DNA from: Verrucomicrobiia bacterium
GTDB taxonomy: Bacteria; Verrucomicrobiota; Verrucomicrobiia; Limisphaerales; Pedosphaeraceae
DNA: 57,854 nucleotides
NCBI GenBank assembly: GCA_036268055.1
Contig: DATAUW010000025.1
Location: forward strand, 1-57,854
Reading direction: 5' to 3'
Made by a program: the position numbers and the translations under genes. Under the pieces are notes generated by a model that saw only the letters and a program-made list of their open reading frames with translations, had not been told where the DNA came from and did not search any database. This document shows, one piece after another, positions 44,708 through 50,657 of this stretch (the stretch's first letter is position 1; each line of letters begins with the position of its first letter).

Positions 44708-44945
44708 GCGCATGGTAGGGCTGCGCTCCGCGCAGCCGTCCGAAGTCCCGCAGGGACGAAAGAAATTTGCCCACCACTTTAGTGGTGGGTCCTCGTCCCA
44801 TTCAAATCAAGTCCCGGCAGGGACGAAAGAATCTTTCCCTTGGAACCAAAATTCGCACCCTTGCCCACCGCTTCTCATTAACCCCCGGCTTCAGCCGGGG
44901 GAATGAACGCCCCTCAAAAAACTATCCCGAGCGCAGCGAGGCCAG
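44708..44945. repeat. Family B hairpin cluster
   Basis: Ordered hairpins: gctgcgctccgcgcagcc; GTCCCGCAGGGAC (44745-44757); CCCACCACT-TT-AGTGGTGGG (44770-44789); GTCCCGGCAGGGAC (44811-44824) with GAAAGAA; CCCCCGGCT-TC-AGCCGGGGG (44882-44901); then gagcgcagcgaggccagccc, also seen near 316-335. The order is the same as at 1-392. The ~640-bp gap contains no credible gene. Confidence 0.8.
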
Positions 44946-45002
44946 CCCACCAACCAACCAAGAGAAAAAATATTCACCACCGCATCCACCTTGCCATTCC
45001 CC

Positions 45003-45035
45003 CAATTCCGCATTCCGCATTCCGCATTCCGCACT
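45003..45035. repeat. Heptamer tandem repeat (TTCCGCA)x4
   Basis: Four consecutive TTCCGCA units are followed by two cttgaaa units and an A/T-rich aaattttaaattttgcattttt tract. The related degenerate copy is at 23582-23616. It lies in the gap between the zinc-ribbon protein and the family B cluster. Confidence 0.75.
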
Positions 45036-45112
45036 GAAAACTTGAAACTTGAAACTGCAAACTTCCTCCCATTTTTAAATTTTAAATTTTGCATTTTTAA
45101 TTCCCTCACCCC

Positions 45113-45451
45113 TCAATCCCCAAACAATTTTTTCAACTGCACCCGCGCCGCATCCTCCCGCGAATTCTTTTCATCCTTCGCCACAAAATTTTTCCGCGCG
45201 AACTCAAAAAATTCGCAAAACGTCCCCACCTGCTTCTCCGCCTCCGGTTCCGCGCGCCGGTCGCGGCATTGATGCGCCACCTTCGGATCGTAACTCACGC
45301 AATTCAGGCACACCCGCAAATCCGCCCCGCAGCGATGGCAACTCTCACTCCGCCCCGGTTGCCCCGCGAGCGTCCATTCCCAACCGCACCTGTAACAATG
45401 GCGTGCCGGCTGGGGCGCAGCGTTCGGTGTCGAATCAAAAATATTTGCCAC
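45113..45451 (-). CDS. Small zinc-ribbon protein, unknown
   Basis: A 112-residue protein with two CxxC-type knuckles at the N-terminus (CYRCG near residue 19 and CHRCG near 38) and further cysteines (LRVCLNCVSYDP, QCRDR), indicating one or two zinc sites. A helical tail (GTFCEFFEFARKNFVAK) follows. It is co-oriented with the bufferin operon, 48 bp after bufC, so read-through is possible. Function unassigned. Confidence 0.7.
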   Translation of the reverse strand: MANIFDSTPNAAPQPARHCYRCGWEWTLAGQPGRSESCHRCGADLRVCLNCVSYDPKVAHQCRDRRAEPEAEKQVGTFCEFFEFARKNFVAKDEKNSREDAARVQLKKLFGD

Positions 45452-45499
45452 AACGATGATTGACCAAAAATAATCTCAAAATCCAGCGAAGCAAAAACT

Positions 45500-46462
45500 T
45501 TATTTCAACCAAAACCATCCGAGCGACGCCCATTGACGAAACCATTTCTCAATCGGCGGCAACGCGCGCTCATTCGAAAAAATCTGCAACGCTCTTTCCA
45601 GCGTCGCACCACCGCGAATCGCCAACAGCAAATCATACTGCGCCTGCTCCAGCCGTTTATAATAAACCATGTTCTGATGCCGATGCACCGCGAGCCACAC
45701 GATCTTCTTTTTCGGCAAACGCAACCGCTTCACGCGCTCGCGCCCCGGCATGTCCTCCACCGCATTGCTCGCCTCACCGCGCAAGCGCGTGTTCTCGCGC
45801 AACGCTATGAGAAATTCATCCAGCGGATAACCCAATTCAAGCAAGGTCAAGTGCGGTTGCAAATGCAGCCGTAACTTCGCGGCGTCGCGCCCCTGCAAAT
45901 CTTCCAGCGTTAGCGGCGTCTTCGCTTCGCCATCGAACGCCTCGATGTGCGCCCATTCCAGTCGAGCGATGTCCCGCGCCAGTTCGCGATGCGCACCCGC
46001 CCAGCGCGGCTCGGCATCAATAAACTCCACCACGTGACTCCCCAGGTCGCGCAACGTGAACCGCGTCGAAGGATGATTCGCGAGATACGCCACCGCAAAA
46101 TCGCGAAACCCATTTTCCCCCAGCACCGCGCGCACACCCGGAAAATCATCGTAAAAACATTCCAACACGCGCAGCCAATATTGCCGATTATAAATTTCCA
46201 GCCGCTCGAAGGAAGTGAGCCGGTCATTCGGCTTCATAAACTTCGCCGCCACTTTTTCTGTCGCGCGGCCGTCGCTCCACTTCGCGCGCATGCGCAACTC
46301 CGGCGTGAGCGGACGCATCACCGCCCGCGCCATCAGCCGTTGTAGCGCGCGCAGTTCCGCGGCCGTTTGTCGCTTACGCGGCGGCGGCTTGCGGACGCTG
46401 GATAAATTGGTTGGCCTTGAGCGCTTCACGATGAACTTCGTCGAACGACGGAATATGCGCAT
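45500..46462 (-). CDS. bufC: BufC-like DUF2063 protein (bufferin operon)
   Basis: A DUF2063 protein that partners with DUF692 enzymes in RiPP maturation, probably presenting the precursor. Recognisable segments are LRALQRLMARAVMRPLTPEL, LEIYNRQYWLRVLECFYDDF and LAVHRHQNMVYYKRL. The start is uncertain. ATG 46462 gives 320 residues and an 89-nt overlap with bufB. ATG 46333 would remove the overlap but cut into the conserved helix. It lies directly downstream of bufB on the same strand. Confidence 0.8.
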   Translation of the reverse strand: MRIFRRSTKFIVKRSRPTNLSSVRKPPPRKRQTAAELRALQRLMARAVMRPLTPELRMRAKWSDGRATEKVAAKFMKPNDRLTSFERLEIYNRQYWLRVLECFYDDFPGVRAVLGENGFRDFAVAYLANHPSTRFTLRDLGSHVVEFIDAEPRWAGAHRELARDIARLEWAHIEAFDGEAKTPLTLEDLQGRDAAKLRLHLQPHLTLLELGYPLDEFLIALRENTRLRGEASNAVEDMPGRERVKRLRLPKKKIVWLAVHRHQNMVYYKRLEQAQYDLLLAIRGGATLERALQIFSNERALPPIEKWFRQWASLGWFWLK

Positions 46463-47222
46463 CCCACTCGAGCAGCGTCGCCGTCTGCCCGGTGCGCCGC
46501 ACGGCATGAGCGTAGAGTTGCCACACCGGCTCAATCACCGCGTGGTCATGCGTATCGAGAATGTATTTTCGATATTGCGAATGTCCGGCAATGTGGATCT
46601 GCGCGACGCGTTCCGCCGGAATGTGATTGAGATATTGGTAAGGATCAAATCCGTGATTGAACGCAGAGACATGAATATTATTCACATCCAATAAAATGCC
46701 GCAATCCGCGCGCTCAACCACTTCCGTCAGAAATTCCCACTCCGTCATTTCCGAAACGTGAAACTCCGCGTAGCTGCTCACGTTTTCCACCGCAATCGGA
46801 ACCTCGAGAAAATCCCGCGCCTCGCGAATTTTCCGCGCCGCAACTTTCGCCGCGGCAAACGTATAAGGCATCGGCAACAAGTCATGCGTGTAACGCCCAT
46901 CCACGCTCCCCCAGCAAAGATGATCGGAAAGCCACGGCGTTTTCGTCCGGCGAACCAGTCGCTTAAGCTTTTTCAAATGCTCGCGGTTCAACCGGTCCGA
47001 CGAACCAAAATACATTGAGACGCCATGCTGCACCACGCGATATTGCTCAAGAATCTGGTCGAGGATTTCCAGCGGACGCCCCCCATCCACCATGAAATTT
47101 TCAGAGATAATCTCGAACCAATCTACCACCGGCTTTTTGCGGAGGATATGCTGGTAATGCGGAATGCGCAGGCCGATGCCCACGCCATAATCCGTGAAGG
47201 CGTTAAAACGATTGGCGGGCAT
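46374..47222 (-). CDS. bufB: BufB-like DUF692 multinuclear iron oxidative enzyme
   Basis: A 282-residue MNIO (DUF692) enzyme from ATG 47222 (MPANRFNAFTDY). Metal-binding and core motifs: GVGIGLRIPH, SENFMVDGG, VVQHGVSMYFG, LSDHLCW, AVENVSSY, LLDVNNIHVSAFNHG, QIHIAGHS, DTHDHAVIEPVW and LLEWDAHIP. Members install oxidative modifications on cysteines of RiPP precursors using a di- or tri-iron centre. Flanked by a Cys-rich precursor and a DUF2063 protein, it fits the bufferin type. Upstream residues in the same frame lie inside the bufA gap and are not coding. Confidence 0.92.
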   Translation of the reverse strand: MPANRFNAFTDYGVGIGLRIPHYQHILRKKPVVDWFEIISENFMVDGGRPLEILDQILEQYRVVQHGVSMYFGSSDRLNREHLKKLKRLVRRTKTPWLSDHLCWGSVDGRYTHDLLPMPYTFAAAKVAARKIREARDFLEVPIAVENVSSYAEFHVSEMTEWEFLTEVVERADCGILLDVNNIHVSAFNHGFDPYQYLNHIPAERVAQIHIAGHSQYRKYILDTHDHAVIEPVWQLYAHAVRRTGQTATLLEWDAHIPSFDEVHREALKANQFIQRPQAAAA

Positions 47223-47254
47223 GGAGTTTACGCCTGAATTTTTACTCTTCTGTA

Positions 47255-47275
47255 ACGGCGATCCCAAACCGCCGC
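47255..47275 (-). other. Hairpin between bufA and bufB
   Basis: Read on the mRNA strand: CGGCG-GTTTGGGAT-CGCCG, in the 65-bp gap. There is no T tract. Such hairpins between a RiPP precursor and its enzyme can stabilise the precursor message or reduce enzyme expression. A near-identical word (ggcgatctaaaaccgcc) occurs after hisF at ~53544-53563, so it may instead be a repeat. Confidence 0.4.
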
Positions 47276-47287
47276 TACGCCAAAAAA

Positions 47288-47599
47288 TTACACGCCCTTG
47301 GCGGCTTTTTCTTTCTGCATCTTCTCCCAATTCTTGATGTCCTTGTCCGTGATGCTGCACGCGCCCTTGCCTTTGCAATCGTTCTTGAACTTGCATTTAT
47401 GGTCGTCGTTCTTGCAACCGCCCAGGCCCTTGCAATCGTTCTGGCCCGAACAATCGTGGACCTTGGGCATTTTTTTCGCCGGAGCCACCTTGCCCGGCGC
47501 GGTGTTCGTATCGGCGCTCGAAGCGCGATTGACCGCCACGCCGCTGAGCAAACCAGAGATGGCGGCGGCAGTAATAAGAGTGCGAGTTGTTCTTTTCAT
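47288..47599 (-). CDS. bufA: BufA-type bufferin precursor, Cys-rich exported RiPP
   Basis: A 103-residue precursor from ATG 47599. A Sec signal (RTLITAAAISGLLSGVAVNR) is followed by a linker and a six-cysteine core with spacing C-x5-C-x5-C-x6-C-x5-C-x5-C. The core is an internal duplication: NDCKGLGGC and NDCKGKGAC. This matches the BufA2-like group of periplasmic bufferins, metal-buffering RiPPs (notably copper) whose cysteines are oxidised by the DUF692 enzyme. The gene starts 150 bp after the DUF1425 stop, so it probably has its own promoter; a TATAGT -10-like box lies at 47627-47632. Confidence 0.88.
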   Translation of the reverse strand: MKRTTRTLITAAAISGLLSGVAVNRASSADTNTAPGKVAPAKKMPKVHDCSGQNDCKGLGGCKNDDHKCKFKNDCKGKGACSITDKDIKNWEKMQKEKAAKGV

Positions 47600-47751
47600 G
47601 GGTTTTCCAATCGTTGATTTAACCATACTATAGAGCGCATGCGGGAGACTTTCGTTCAAGGAGAAAAAGGCTTCCTCACGCCGTGTGAAAAAGATTCGGC
47701 AAGACCCACAAATCTTCCCCAATGATGCACTAAATGAATTCGCGGCGAAAA

Positions 47752-48165
47752 TCACTCACCCGAACAAATCCGAACCGTATAACGCGCCGCCGAACTGTCC
47801 GCCACAAAATGCACCGCCGCCGGCACATTCACATTTAACGTCATTAGTTGCGCCGGCGCGTACTTCCCCACGCGATGTCCCCGCGCGTCCTTGAAAATGC
47901 AATCCACCTTCACCGTCTGCGGCCGGTCTTCACGATCCCGAAGCCGCGCCGTCACCTCCAGCCGCCCATCCGGCGTCGCGCGCTCCTCAATCGCCGGGCA
48001 TGCCACCGAATATTGCAAACGCGAATCCACCACCACCACCAGCGCGTGATCCTCCACGCCATTGACCGACGTGTTCAGCGGCACGTAACTTCCTGGCCCG
48101 CCCGTCGCGCAACCGCTGATTGCCGCCACAGCCACCATCGCCAATCCGCTAAAAAAAATGCGCAT
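47752..48165 (-). CDS. YcfL-like DUF1425 lipoprotein
   Basis: A 137-residue lipoprotein from ATG 48165 (MRIFFSGLAMVAVAAISGC; lipobox ISGC); an alternative start lies 3 codons upstream. The mature part reads as a beta-sandwich (LQYSVACPAIEERATPDGRL ... VKVDCIFKDARGHRV) like YcfL. It is the last gene of a lipoprotein operon with LpoB and is the second DUF1425-type protein in it. Confidence 0.78.
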   Translation of the reverse strand: MRIFFSGLAMVAVAAISGCATGGPGSYVPLNTSVNGVEDHALVVVVDSRLQYSVACPAIEERATPDGRLEVTARLRDREDRPQTVKVDCIFKDARGHRVGKYAPAQLMTLNVNVPAAVHFVADSSAARYTVRICSGE

Positions 48166-48197
48166 CACACCCATTCGTTTCCCCGTTGAAAACTTTT

Positions 48198-48803
48198 TTA
48201 AAACCCAACCGCCGGACGCGTCCCTTGTTTCGTGATCGTCTTTTCATCCTCCCAAACCGCCACGCCCGCATTCGAGCTAAGCGATAACTGGAACACAAAC
48301 GACGATTGACGCGTATCCCCCGCGCGGTCGCGCACTTCAATGATCTTTCCCGAGAGCGTGTAATCCGGTCGGCGGCTGCCGACACCCTGATTCAACTCCT
48401 GCTGCCGCTGCATATCCGCCGCGATCGGGTCCGCCGGCCCGCCGATGCCGTAAGTCGTGGACGTCTGCACCTTCCCCGTGCGATTGAGCGCCACGCTGAT
48501 TTTTTTCACCAGCAAGTCCGTGTCGAACTGTTCGCCCGTTTCATTTTGGATGCGGCTGATCGCCAGCAGCGCCGGTTGGCCCTGCGCGCCACTGCGCAAT
48601 TTATCCTGGCTGATGTAATTGTCGTTCAGCGATTGCACCATCGCATTCGCCGCGTTGGCAAAGTCCTGGATATTGATGTCGCCCACCGTGGTCACCAGAT
48701 GCGAGCTGTCCGAATTGACGTAATGCGCGTCGGTGCCGCAACCAGTGAGCAACGCAATGCCCAGCGCGGAAATCGCCGTGGAAACAAAAATGGTTTTTTT
48801 CAT
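48198..48803 (-). CDS. lpoB: LpoB-like penicillin-binding protein activator
   Basis: A 201-residue outer-membrane lipoprotein (lipobox LLTGC). Family features: AMVQSLNDNYISQDKL, LLAISRIQNETGEQFDTDLL and YTLSGKIIEVRDRAG. In enterobacteria LpoB reaches through the peptidoglycan to activate PBP1B. The flanking YcfL-like proteins match the conserved ycfL-lpoB gene order of gammaproteobacteria. Confidence 0.9.
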   Translation of the reverse strand: MKKTIFVSTAISALGIALLTGCGTDAHYVNSDSSHLVTTVGDINIQDFANAANAMVQSLNDNYISQDKLRSGAQGQPALLAISRIQNETGEQFDTDLLVKKISVALNRTGKVQTSTTYGIGGPADPIAADMQRQQELNQGVGSRRPDYTLSGKIIEVRDRAGDTRQSSFVFQLSLSSNAGVAVWEDEKTITKQGTRPAVGF

Positions 48804-48826
48804 AAATTTTTTTGGTCGAGATTAGT

Positions 48827-49255
48827 TTAATTGACGGGATGCAAAAATTTCACGCGAAAATCCTTGGCGGTAATCGTCGGCGCGAGGGCCACGATCTCCT
48901 GCGTTTCACCGCCTTCAATGGTGCGGGAAATGGTGGTGTCCGTCGGCATGTGCATCGCCATGCCCGCCTGGTCGAACCATTCGATCTGATACGAGAACGT
49001 CTGCGTATCGCTGGTGAGGTTTTTCACCTCGATTTGAATTTTCAGAAAACCGGCGGGAGTGTCGGTTGTGTTCACGGCGATAATATGCACGTGATTATCC
49101 AGGTAAGGATCGGTCGTTACGCGTTTGTCCGGCAGCATCGCGCGCTGGCCGGAAGGCTGCGCTGGTTCCACGGTGTTCACCGAAGTGGTGCAGCCGGTGG
49201 CGAACAACGCGGCGCCCAGGGCGGCCGCCGCGAACGGAAGCAAGGGAGTTTTCAT
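48827..49255 (-). CDS. YcfL-family (DUF1425) lipoprotein
   Basis: A 142-residue lipoprotein (lipobox FATGC). Mature segment: HVHIIAVNTTDTPAGFLKIQ, IEVKNLTSDTQTFSYQIEW, IVALAPTITAKDFRVKF. YcfL proteins accompany LpoB. It lies 1 bp after the COG3014 gene and 23 bp before lpoB. Confidence 0.88.
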   Translation of the reverse strand: MKTPLLPFAAAALGAALFATGCTTSVNTVEPAQPSGQRAMLPDKRVTTDPYLDNHVHIIAVNTTDTPAGFLKIQIEVKNLTSDTQTFSYQIEWFDQAGMAMHMPTDTTISRTIEGGETQEIVALAPTITAKDFRVKFLHPVN

Positions 49256-49256
49256 A

Positions 49257-50657
49257 TTAATTCCTCAGTTTAAATTGACTCACCAATAAAGGTGTACCGA
49301 TTCTGACGCAGCGGACATACACCACATTCACCGTGCCGGGCTGCACCATGACCTCGGCCGGCGGCGCACCCGGCGCGCTCAGCGTCAATCGCCGGTCGGC
49401 CGGCGTATTGATGCGCGCGACTTCAAAATCCTTTGGCAGCGTCGTCCACGAACGCGTATCCGCGATGTTCACCGAGGCTTGCGCCACCGCCGTTCCCAAA
49501 CGCGCGATCAATCCGCCGATGGCGTCCTGCTGGCTCGCCGCCTGATTGATCGCCCAACCCGCCGCGCCTTTGGCCACCGTCGAGATCAGCGTCTTGGTGA
49601 TGATGCTTGGATATTCATTTTTGAAATCGAGCGCCACAATCGCATCCATGTTCGCCAGCGGCTCCGCCGTTTCCTGCACGCCCGCGCCGCTGACCGTGAG
49701 ATAACGCGGCTCCTCGTCATGAATGATCAGAATCGGAAACGCCGCGCCGACATACGACACATCGGAAAAAATGATCGGCACATCTATGCGCACCTGCCCG
49801 CGGCTCGGCGCCTCGCCCGTCTCAAAAATCACATACGTGCACGGCGCCGGCGCTTGTCCGCCGATCATCGCATTCACTTGCGCCAGGTCCTGCTGCACGA
49901 ATTTATTTTGTCCCTCGACTTCGATCACGCGCTCCAAAGATTTATGCGCATGCTCCAAATCCGCGCCGCCCGCGCCTTGATACATGTAAAACAATCCGTC
50001 GAGATACACCGTGAAGGGATTCACGTAATCCGCGTAATACTTGAAATTCTCCGTCCCCTTCGTCGCGTTGGCGATGGCGCTGTTGAACGTCGGGTCGGCC
50101 TTCGCGCGCTCAATCGCTTCCTTGTCCTTCGCCGAATCCTCCGCCGACTTCGCGCGCGCGATGCGTTTCGCATTGTCCGCCACCGCGTCCTGCTGGCATT
50201 GATAAGCGCGAATCAATTCGGGCCGCGCGCGTTCGGGATCGGCGAGCGTGAGGTAATTCAACGCCTCGTAAGTGTGCAGCATGATCTTGTCGTACGGCTT
50301 CCCTTCGTACGGCAAATTTTCCTGGTTCGAAAAAATCGCGGCGGTTTCGTGCCCGGCCTTGACCTTCGCCTCCTCCTCGTATTGATCCATGCGATGGGCC
50401 GCCTCGTCAAAATGACGATTGCTCTCGCCGTAACTCCCCGCCGCGCGATACGCCGCGCCCGCTTCGAGATGCCACACGACCGCATCCGCCTTCCGCGCAT
50501 CGTCCGCCTTCTTGCCGAATTCAGCGGCCGCCGCCGCCGGGCGGCCGTAATCCCAATTCGAGGTCATTCGCCCCGCCTGCTCGCGATAAGTACGGCAACC
50601 GGTGGAAACCAGTGCGACGAGCACCATGCTCGAACCCAACTGCGCAAACTTTTTCAT
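49257..50657 (-). CDS. COG3014-family TPR-containing lipoprotein
   Basis: A 466-residue lipoprotein (lipobox VSTGC). The N-terminal half is helical with TPR-like repeats (VVWHLEAGAAYRAAGSYGES, LHTYEALNYLTLADPERARP). The C-terminal half is beta-rich (PTFNSAIANATKGTENFKYY ... VDVPIIFSDVSYVGAAFP). COG3014 proteins precede ycfL and lpoB in many Gram-negatives; their role is unknown but presumed in cell-wall growth. It is the first gene of the operon. Confidence 0.88.
   Translation of the reverse strand: MKKFAQLGSSMVLVALVSTGCRTYREQAGRMTSNWDYGRPAAAAAEFGKKADDARKADAVVWHLEAGAAYRAAGSYGESNRHFDEAAHRMDQYEEEAKVKAGHETAAIFSNQENLPYEGKPYDKIMLHTYEALNYLTLADPERARPELIRAYQCQQDAVADNAKRIARAKSAEDSAKDKEAIERAKADPTFNSAIANATKGTENFKYYADYVNPFTVYLDGLFYMYQGAGGADLEHAHKSLERVIEVEGQNKFVQQDLAQVNAMIGGQAPAPCTYVIFETGEAPSRGQVRIDVPIIFSDVSYVGAAFPILIIHDEEPRYLTVSGAGVQETAEPLANMDAIVALDFKNEYPSIITKTLISTVAKGAAGWAINQAASQQDAIGGLIARLGTAVAQASVNIADTRSWTTLPKDFEVARINTPADRRLTLSAPGAPPAEVMVQPGTVNVVYVRCVRIGTPLLVSQFKLRN

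Follow-up and report, generated by a model that had tools for sequence, protein, structure and literature searches.

The present study analyzes a three-gene locus, bufA-bufB-bufC, in a 57,854-nucleotide stretch of a Verrucomicrobiia genome (contig DATAUW010000025.1, positions 1 to 57,854; this whole stretch is called the window below). The locus is quite probably a bufferin-type operon for a ribosomally synthesized and post-translationally modified peptide (RiPP), in which a symmetric Buf2-like precursor, BufA, would be made into a thiooxazole copper-binding peptide. What is known here is the bufferin-type operon; what is distinctive, as read from the sequences compared, is a symmetric core with a moved sixth Cys relative to classical Buf2, found throughout a branch of Verrucomicrobiota and Acidobacteriota. 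The features that carry the argument are these:

47288..47599 (-): bufA, Buf2-like RiPP precursor, 103 amino acids, six Cys (open reading frame translation, NF050166 match and alignment)
46374..47222 (-): bufB, maturase of the MNIO family (DUF692), 282 amino acids (PF05114 and NF050167 matches)
45500..46429 (-): bufC, DUF2063 partner protein with a RiPP recognition element (RRE), PME-type 1, 309 amino acids, GTG start (PF09836 and predicted fold)
47513..47599 (-): N-terminal signal/leader region of BufA, residues 1-29, with A13-x2-G16-x3-G20 (alignment; cleavage site by eye)
47414..47452 (-): first three-Cys unit, CSGQNDCKGLGGC, residues 50-62 (translation and alignment)
47357..47395 (-): second three-Cys unit, CKFKNDCKGKGAC, residues 69-81 (translation and alignment)

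The genes follow one another in the bufferin order, all on the minus strand, with 65 nt between bufA and bufB and the start of bufC overlapping the end of bufB by 56 nt. The GTG start of bufC at 46429 was set by alignment with relatives, and by coordinates the same overlap recurs in loci L041, L045 and, counted from its second Met, L040. BufB matched PF05114 at 362.3 bits (cut-off 25) and NF050167 (MNIO_BufB) at 349.4 bits (cut-off 310), and reached 253.5 bits, below the cut-off of 360, with the HvfB model. In alignment with the solved MNIOs 3BWW and TglH it keeps the HG, SDHL, VEN, LDVNN, HIAGH, DTH and LLE blocks, which presumably hold the iron-binding residues. BufC matched PF09836 (DUF2063) at 52.9 bits (cut-off 27.2); no solved structure matched its alignment by sequence at E 0.01, and its AlphaFold model (predicted local distance difference test, pLDDT, 86.5) was closest in the PDB to Neisseria NGO1945 (3DEE; E 6.6e-5, TMt 0.72), followed by two TglHI entries, TglI being the partner of the MNIO TglH. 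The bufferin operon of the initial annotation, with DUF692 and DUF2063 genes in order on one strand, is thus borne out. The arrangement is not due to chance, since in another genome (G513) a bufA 72% identical and a bufB 88% identical to those of the window lie side by side. The probable verrucomicrobial host that had been proposed also agrees with the genomes placed in the same taxonomic order as the window, which correspond to contigs titled Verrucomicrobiales (G513, L068) and Limisphaerales (G511, L073). A search of the 5.1 Mb host genome, 96% complete, found no MNIO besides BufB, nothing further resembling bufA at E 1 and no match to DUF2282 at E 0.001.

BufA begins with MKRTTRTLITAAAISGLLSGVAVNRASSA and has Cys at positions 50, 56, 62, 69, 75 and 81, i.e. 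C-x5-C-x5-C-x6-C-x5-C-x5-C (5-5-6-5-5 below). The Sec-exported six-Cys precursor originally described stands in its spacing, confirmed by translation, with the Sec-type signal and cleavage site judged by eye; both of its NDCKGxGxC units are present as well, as NDCKGLGGC (residues 54-62) and NDCKGKGAC (residues 73-81). K-F in place of K-G in the second unit is common to this precursor and the three nearest to it. The two halves of 13 residues are identical at 8, a value reached in 0.26% of 5000 shuffles of the non-Cys residues of the first half (mean 4.4, P 0.0026).

The same core was found well beyond the window. In a phylum sample, NF050166 at E 0.001 matched 16 of 387 genomes, and in an order sample the window bufA as query matched 13 of 196, the host being included in both; from these, 25 Sec- or lipoprotein-type precursors were drawn, window included. 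In a scan of named genomes the 80 best BufB relatives were kept from a larger number, 75–88% identical to the window BufB and, with taxa counted from record titles, comprising 39 Verrucomicrobiota and 41 Acidobacteriota. A candidate precursor, defined by CKG and at least five Cys on the same strand within 1.5 kb upstream of bufB, was present at 72 of these 80 loci, giving 73 precursors; the eight loci without one under this filter include L071 and L108, which have fewer than 450 bases upstream. The spacing 5-5-6-5-5 occupied the last six Cys in all 25 sampled precursors, some with extra upstream Cys, and in 66 of the 73 at named loci (36/37 Verrucomicrobiota, 30/36 Acidobacteriota). A duplicated core peculiar to the window copy, as first claimed, was therefore rejected: the duplication is branch-wide and nearly weakest here, half-to-half identity over 74 unique cores ranging from 8 to 13 of 13, with 49 cores at 11 or 12 and the window core one of the two least self-similar. 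BufA adjoined BufB at gene level in 22/22 Sec- or lipoprotein-type loci and bufC followed in 21, the contig of L043 ending in bufB; among the named loci bufC was matched in 79 of 80, L139 stopping short. Because the named loci were found via BufB, only the loci found via bufA are independent evidence for the association of the three genes. Among related loci compared, L053 matched no operon gene. One genome (G492; L043, L044) carries lipobox-type bufA copies in pairs on two contigs, and a third contig adds a fragment, for five matches in all.

The signal region is conserved along with the core. A13, G16 and G20 were invariant in the 25 aligned precursors, and A-x2-G-x3-G was present in 70 of the 92 unique N-termini (shuffled mean 5.8, maximum 14), in 69 of the 73 precursors at named loci and in 0 of 15 from Pseudomonadota, so that it would be a rule of the Verrucomicrobiota/Acidobacteriota branch only. 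This fits retention of the motif for recognition by BufB-BufC, matching the hint, from preliminary results of the authors, that the signal peptide of Buf1 is part of what BufB-BufC recognizes (PMC12452194; this paper, PMC13097082, PMC6180224 and PMC8692599 are cited from excerpts). Its conservation could also reflect relatedness alone.

The BufB model passed its NF050167 cut-off in 31 of 387 phylum genomes, as opposed to none for NF050166 at its cut-off of 60, the best score in the sample being 50.2 bits and four other branch members scoring 33.4–43.4. A bufferin-type operon is not rare in the phylum. The view that the window copy extends the family holds insofar as the NCBI BufA2 model misses the branch, but not in the sense of an uncommon operon.

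Buf2 in the broad sense has been described by an exported six-Cys precursor directly before MNIO and DUF2063 genes, and also by Buf1-like mass loss per Cys, a 305 nm band and copper chelation or tolerance (Antoine et al. 2025). The window has this gene arrangement, with the signal judged by eye. Like Buf2/BufA2 of Pseudomonadota (Buf_6/12Cys, NF050166), its precursor has six Cys, the first five spaced 5-5-6-5, a signal-type N-terminus, C-K-G at Cys2 and Cys5 (as in most) and DUF692 and DUF2063-type genes next to it; six-Cys precursors with DUF692 and DUF2063 have been reported in gammaproteobacteria (PMC8692599). Symmetric Buf2-like operons from Acidobacteriota and from other Verrucomicrobiota agree with it in spacing, gene order, signal motif and BufB (75–88% identical), and within these its own clade stands apart by C-S/A-G at Cys1, C-K-F at Cys4, Ala at BufB position 255 (A255) and a charged C-terminal tail. 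With Caulobacter Buf1 (DUF2282) it shares the MNIO and DUF2063 partners, a Sec signal and a proposed copper role (PMC12452194), but Buf1 has four Cys and belongs to another precursor family. Oxazolin and fontiphorin (EGKCG, “Lys-Cys” captophorins) likewise have an MNIO, a PME-type 1 partner and 5-thiooxazole chemistry (PMC13097082); there, however, Lys precedes Cys, whereas it follows Cys in BufA, and the window BufB falls below the HvfB cut-off. The main text of PMC12452194 contains neither “Verrucomicrob” nor “twin-arginine”; figures and supplements lie outside this scope, and the taxon possibly appears in its Fig. 3b.

Several observations weigh against placing the window operon among the bufferins in this way. 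The precursor matched NF050166 (BufA2) at E 2e-8, but with 34.3 bits it did not reach the curated cut-off of 60, compared with 83.8–106.8 bits in five Pseudomonadota precursors, and DUF2282 (PF10048, Buf1) was not among its matches at E up to 1. Its sixth Cys lies 5 residues after the fifth, compared with 12 in 15/15 Pseudomonadota. This 5-5-6-5-12 rule was read from Pseudomonadota relatives here and is not a published one; the 15 loci are plasmid records, three found via BufB and 12 via a classical precursor query, so that the sampling favours it. It occurs twice in a 12-Cys protein of Pseudomonadota (L209) and in 0 of the 73 branch precursors at the best named loci. A symmetric precursor as a plasmid query found nothing, a search probably made uninformative by low-complexity masking, and absence from Pseudomonadota is not claimed from it. 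The AlphaFold model of BufA was not usable (pLDDT 53.5); at E 1 no solved structure matched its alignment by sequence. DoxX is lacking from the buf operon, its three genome matches all lying on other contigs, and the bufferin literature, as far as the cited excerpts go, gave no published assignment of Buf2 modification sites. Nor was a promoter for the operon found: sigma-70-like promoters and terminators in 45000-48200 were about as frequent as in shuffles. A pattern resembling promoters for extracytoplasmic function (ECF) sigma factors, GGAATAA-N15/16-CTC, was present 90–139 nt ahead of bufA in 21 of the 90 unique upstream regions (L056-L058, L061, L062, L064-L067, L077, L078, L092, L093, L102, L109, L113, L117, L124, L128, L136 and L140), against a Markov background mean of 0.08 and none on the reverse strand. 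As a candidate in the window it was rejected, with a score of 3.5 against shuffles with mean 0, sd 3.8 and maximum 18.1, and the fuller pattern was hardly commoner in the window’s genome than a control (3 vs 2).

A further point against the assignment lies in BufB. The counterpart of D254 in 3BWW is the Asp that precedes Phe in its ERDF stretch, a position at which Asp is the catalytic base in MNIOs, and an Asp directly after this base has been described as a mark of Cys-Lys captophorin enzymes (the BufB2-Asp251 position), where in classical BufB2 it was modelled to contact the substrate Lys (PMC13097082). The window has A255 where classical BufB2 and Asticcacaulis BufB have this Asp, and A255 may represent an altered substrate fit; in published variants the position was not decisive (PMC13097082). 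Asp was found there in 14 of 22 aligned BufB and at 73 of the 80 best named loci; Ala was found in the window and seven others of the 22, and at named loci in 5/39 Verrucomicrobiota and 0/41 Acidobacteriota. The three operons whose bufA is nearest combine A255 with C-S/A-G at Cys1 and C-K-F at Cys4. One-to-one pairing of A255 with C-K-F was considered and rejected, because A255 occurs in 4/4 C-K-F operons and also in 4/18 others. With these points weighed, and with the sixth Cys beside the second C-K-G-x-G making the core two alike units, we read bufA as encoding a symmetric Buf2-like bufferin precursor as opposed to an NF050166 equivalog.

In the explanation that we favour, where modification, sites, leader role, export, metal and disulphide are all inferred, BufA would be made with a signal peptide doubling as leader and held by BufC through its DUF2063 and RRE parts, and the iron enzyme BufB would oxidize its Cys, four electrons each, to 5-thiooxazoles, most likely at C56 and C75. 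The modified peptide would then be exported via Sec, cut near residue 29 and bind excess periplasmic copper, each half possibly forming an equivalent soft-metal site, with a C50-C81 disulphide possible. The choice of sites follows Caulobacter Buf1, in which modification falls on the central Cys, a disulphide joins the outermost two and copper is bound (PMC12452194); by this analogy the thiooxazoles are probably at C56 and C75, the pair that stands in N-x-C-K-G-x-G. Over the 74 unique cores the six Cys, two Asn and four Gly were invariant, and C-K-G was kept in 72 at Cys2 and 70 at Cys5, whereas Lys after Cys1, Cys3 and Cys4 was kept in 61, 62 and 64. Natural variants in Acidobacteriota have lost Cys4 (L095, L146) or Cys3 and Cys4 (L083, L084, L144) and retain Cys 1, 2, 5 and 6, and a further one (L100) has a long linker between two complete three-Cys units.

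An alternative explanation, less probable but one to be taken seriously, is that more than two Cys are modified, either C56, C62, C69 and C75 or the full six, so that a polynuclear site would take the place of two equivalent ones. The window precursor has C-K at Cys 2, 3, 4 and 5, and fontiphorin carries seven thiooxazoles (PMC13097082), both in keeping with this explanation. On the other hand, 12 of the 74 unique cores carry a residue other than Lys after Cys3 and 10 do so after Cys4, and the Acidobacteriota variants dispense with Cys4 or with both of these Cys. The two equivalent metal sites of the initial annotation, which BufA may have, gain plausibility from N-x-C-K-G-x-G at Cys2 and Cys5 and from the variants that keep Cys 1, 2, 5 and 6.

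A broader proposal, somewhat doubtful at present, is that the branch is one of its own with two autonomous three-Cys units, each bearing one thiooxazole and one copper site, that such units can be split, repeated or shortened, that BufBC recognizes the A-x2-G-x3-G leader irrespective of how the peptide is exported, and that a sister group of 9-Cys precursors is exported folded, perhaps metal-loaded, via the twin-arginine translocation (Tat) pathway. Bufferin-like 9-Cys precursors with twin-arginine-type signals were found, with strong scores, in 8 of 293 genomes of the window’s order (L048, L049, L050, L051, L052, L188, L189 and L190). All eight share [ST]RRxF, a single Cys spacing and A-x2-G-x3-G (shuffled mean 0.56), and bufB and bufC adjoin seven of them, the eighth (L050 in G519) having neither on its contig and a Sec-type operon elsewhere; the two BufB tested from such loci passed NF050167 with 363 and 368 bits. 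The reading as Tat export, if real, is based on the twin-arginine-type motif. TatC, sought in six genomes, was present in that of the window and in three of five Tat-type genomes; there was no match in G463 (56% complete) or G519 (93% complete), the latter counting against Tat export at least in G519. Tat-signal models matched none of the five precursors scanned, and in the literature searched no paper paired “twin-arginine” with “DUF692”.

Among 17 additional BufB loci from the phylum sample, some had repeat or short-form precursors. In L176 (2557-2946, minus strand), L178 and L186 there are runs of a CKGK[DE][GS] hexapeptide with about one Cys per six residues and 10–12 Cys in the open frame; in L177, L180, L181 and L187 there are charged repeats like DKDKDDCP[GD]KDKEKKE, with Cys-Pro and not Cys-Lys, and the BufB is 64–67% identical to that of the window. 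L172-L175 have short CKGKQSCKGK precursors ending in CWC, CC or WC. In L183 (767-1492, plus strand) a seven-Cys precursor with a Tat-like N-terminus, SRRKFIGSLGAAALAG, lies beside a BufB of 51% identity, and its match to a formate-dehydrogenase Tat-target model was 20.1 bits, below the cut-off of 48.45.

It is unlikely that the same RiPP pathway serves another job than copper, i.e. another soft metal (gold, mercury, zinc) or oxidative or sulphur stress. Published relatives do include “gold-induced” operons and MerC fusions (PMC12452194), and the GGAATAA-type promoter of relatives resembles those of S. meliloti RpoE1/RpoE4, which have a sulfite oxidase gene among their targets (PMC6180224). However, the thiooxazole peptides in PMC12452194 and PMC13097082 are tied to copper, and the GGAATAA-type promoter is absent from the window. 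Least probable by a wide margin is that BufA is an unmodified, metallothionein-like, Cys-rich periplasmic protein needing neither BufB nor BufC for binding: a chain with six Cys and abundant Lys and Gly could bind soft metals without modification, and the Tat-type bufA-like gene of G519 (L050) has no maturase on its contig, with the full Sec-type operon elsewhere (L045), but bufB and bufC accompany bufA in nearly all sampled loci and conservation is far stronger around the two Cys that stand in C-K-G than around the other four.

Between bufA and bufB there is one further element:

47252..47278 (-): 12-bp hairpin without a T run (folding against shuffles)

In the window it folds with z -2.13, 3 of 200 dinucleotide shuffles folding as well (z -1.7 with mononucleotide shuffles). 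A stem-loop here reached z of -2 or lower in 21 of 27 intergenic stretches with mononucleotide shuffles, six including the window not doing so; the 27 include four Tat-type loci and exclude two longer tandem stretches. In several relatives it is followed by a T run. It is possible that the hairpin is a partial terminator or processing element, in which case precursor would outnumber enzyme.

Around the operon, an open reading frame at 45113-45451 (minus strand), 48 nt past bufC, encodes a Cys-rich, double-zinc-ribbon-like protein of 112 amino acids (DZR 18.3 bits, below the cut-off). As a fourth operon gene it was excluded because a search of 28 related loci (some short) gave no homologue at E 1e-3. 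Upstream of bufA on the same strand, 47752-50657 holds an envelope-type cluster with a DUF1425 lipoprotein-like reading frame over the cut-off and another below it, an LpoB-like protein (68.6 bits) and a 466-amino-acid protein without a Pfam match. At 44810-44830 (plus strand), close to the palindrome CCCCCGGCTTCAGCCGGGGG, lies AGTCCCGGCAGGGACGAAAGA, for which the genome has three exact copies against 0 for the reversed pattern.

These findings have several implications for the family. Since the precursor model NF050166 passes none of the 387 phylum genomes and the BufB model passes 31, bufferin counts made with that precursor model are too low in this phylum. The visible two-unit repeat and the natural variants without middle Cys narrow the candidates for Buf2 modification to Cys2 and Cys5, and the variants with lost Cys or split units (L083, L084, L095, L100, L144 and L146) offer ready material for testing which Cys matter. 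If real, the Tat-type relatives would represent another solution to keeping a signal-bearing precursor cytoplasmic until it is modified, and if the reading of two units and Tat export is true, the export route would be a variable of bufferin biology.

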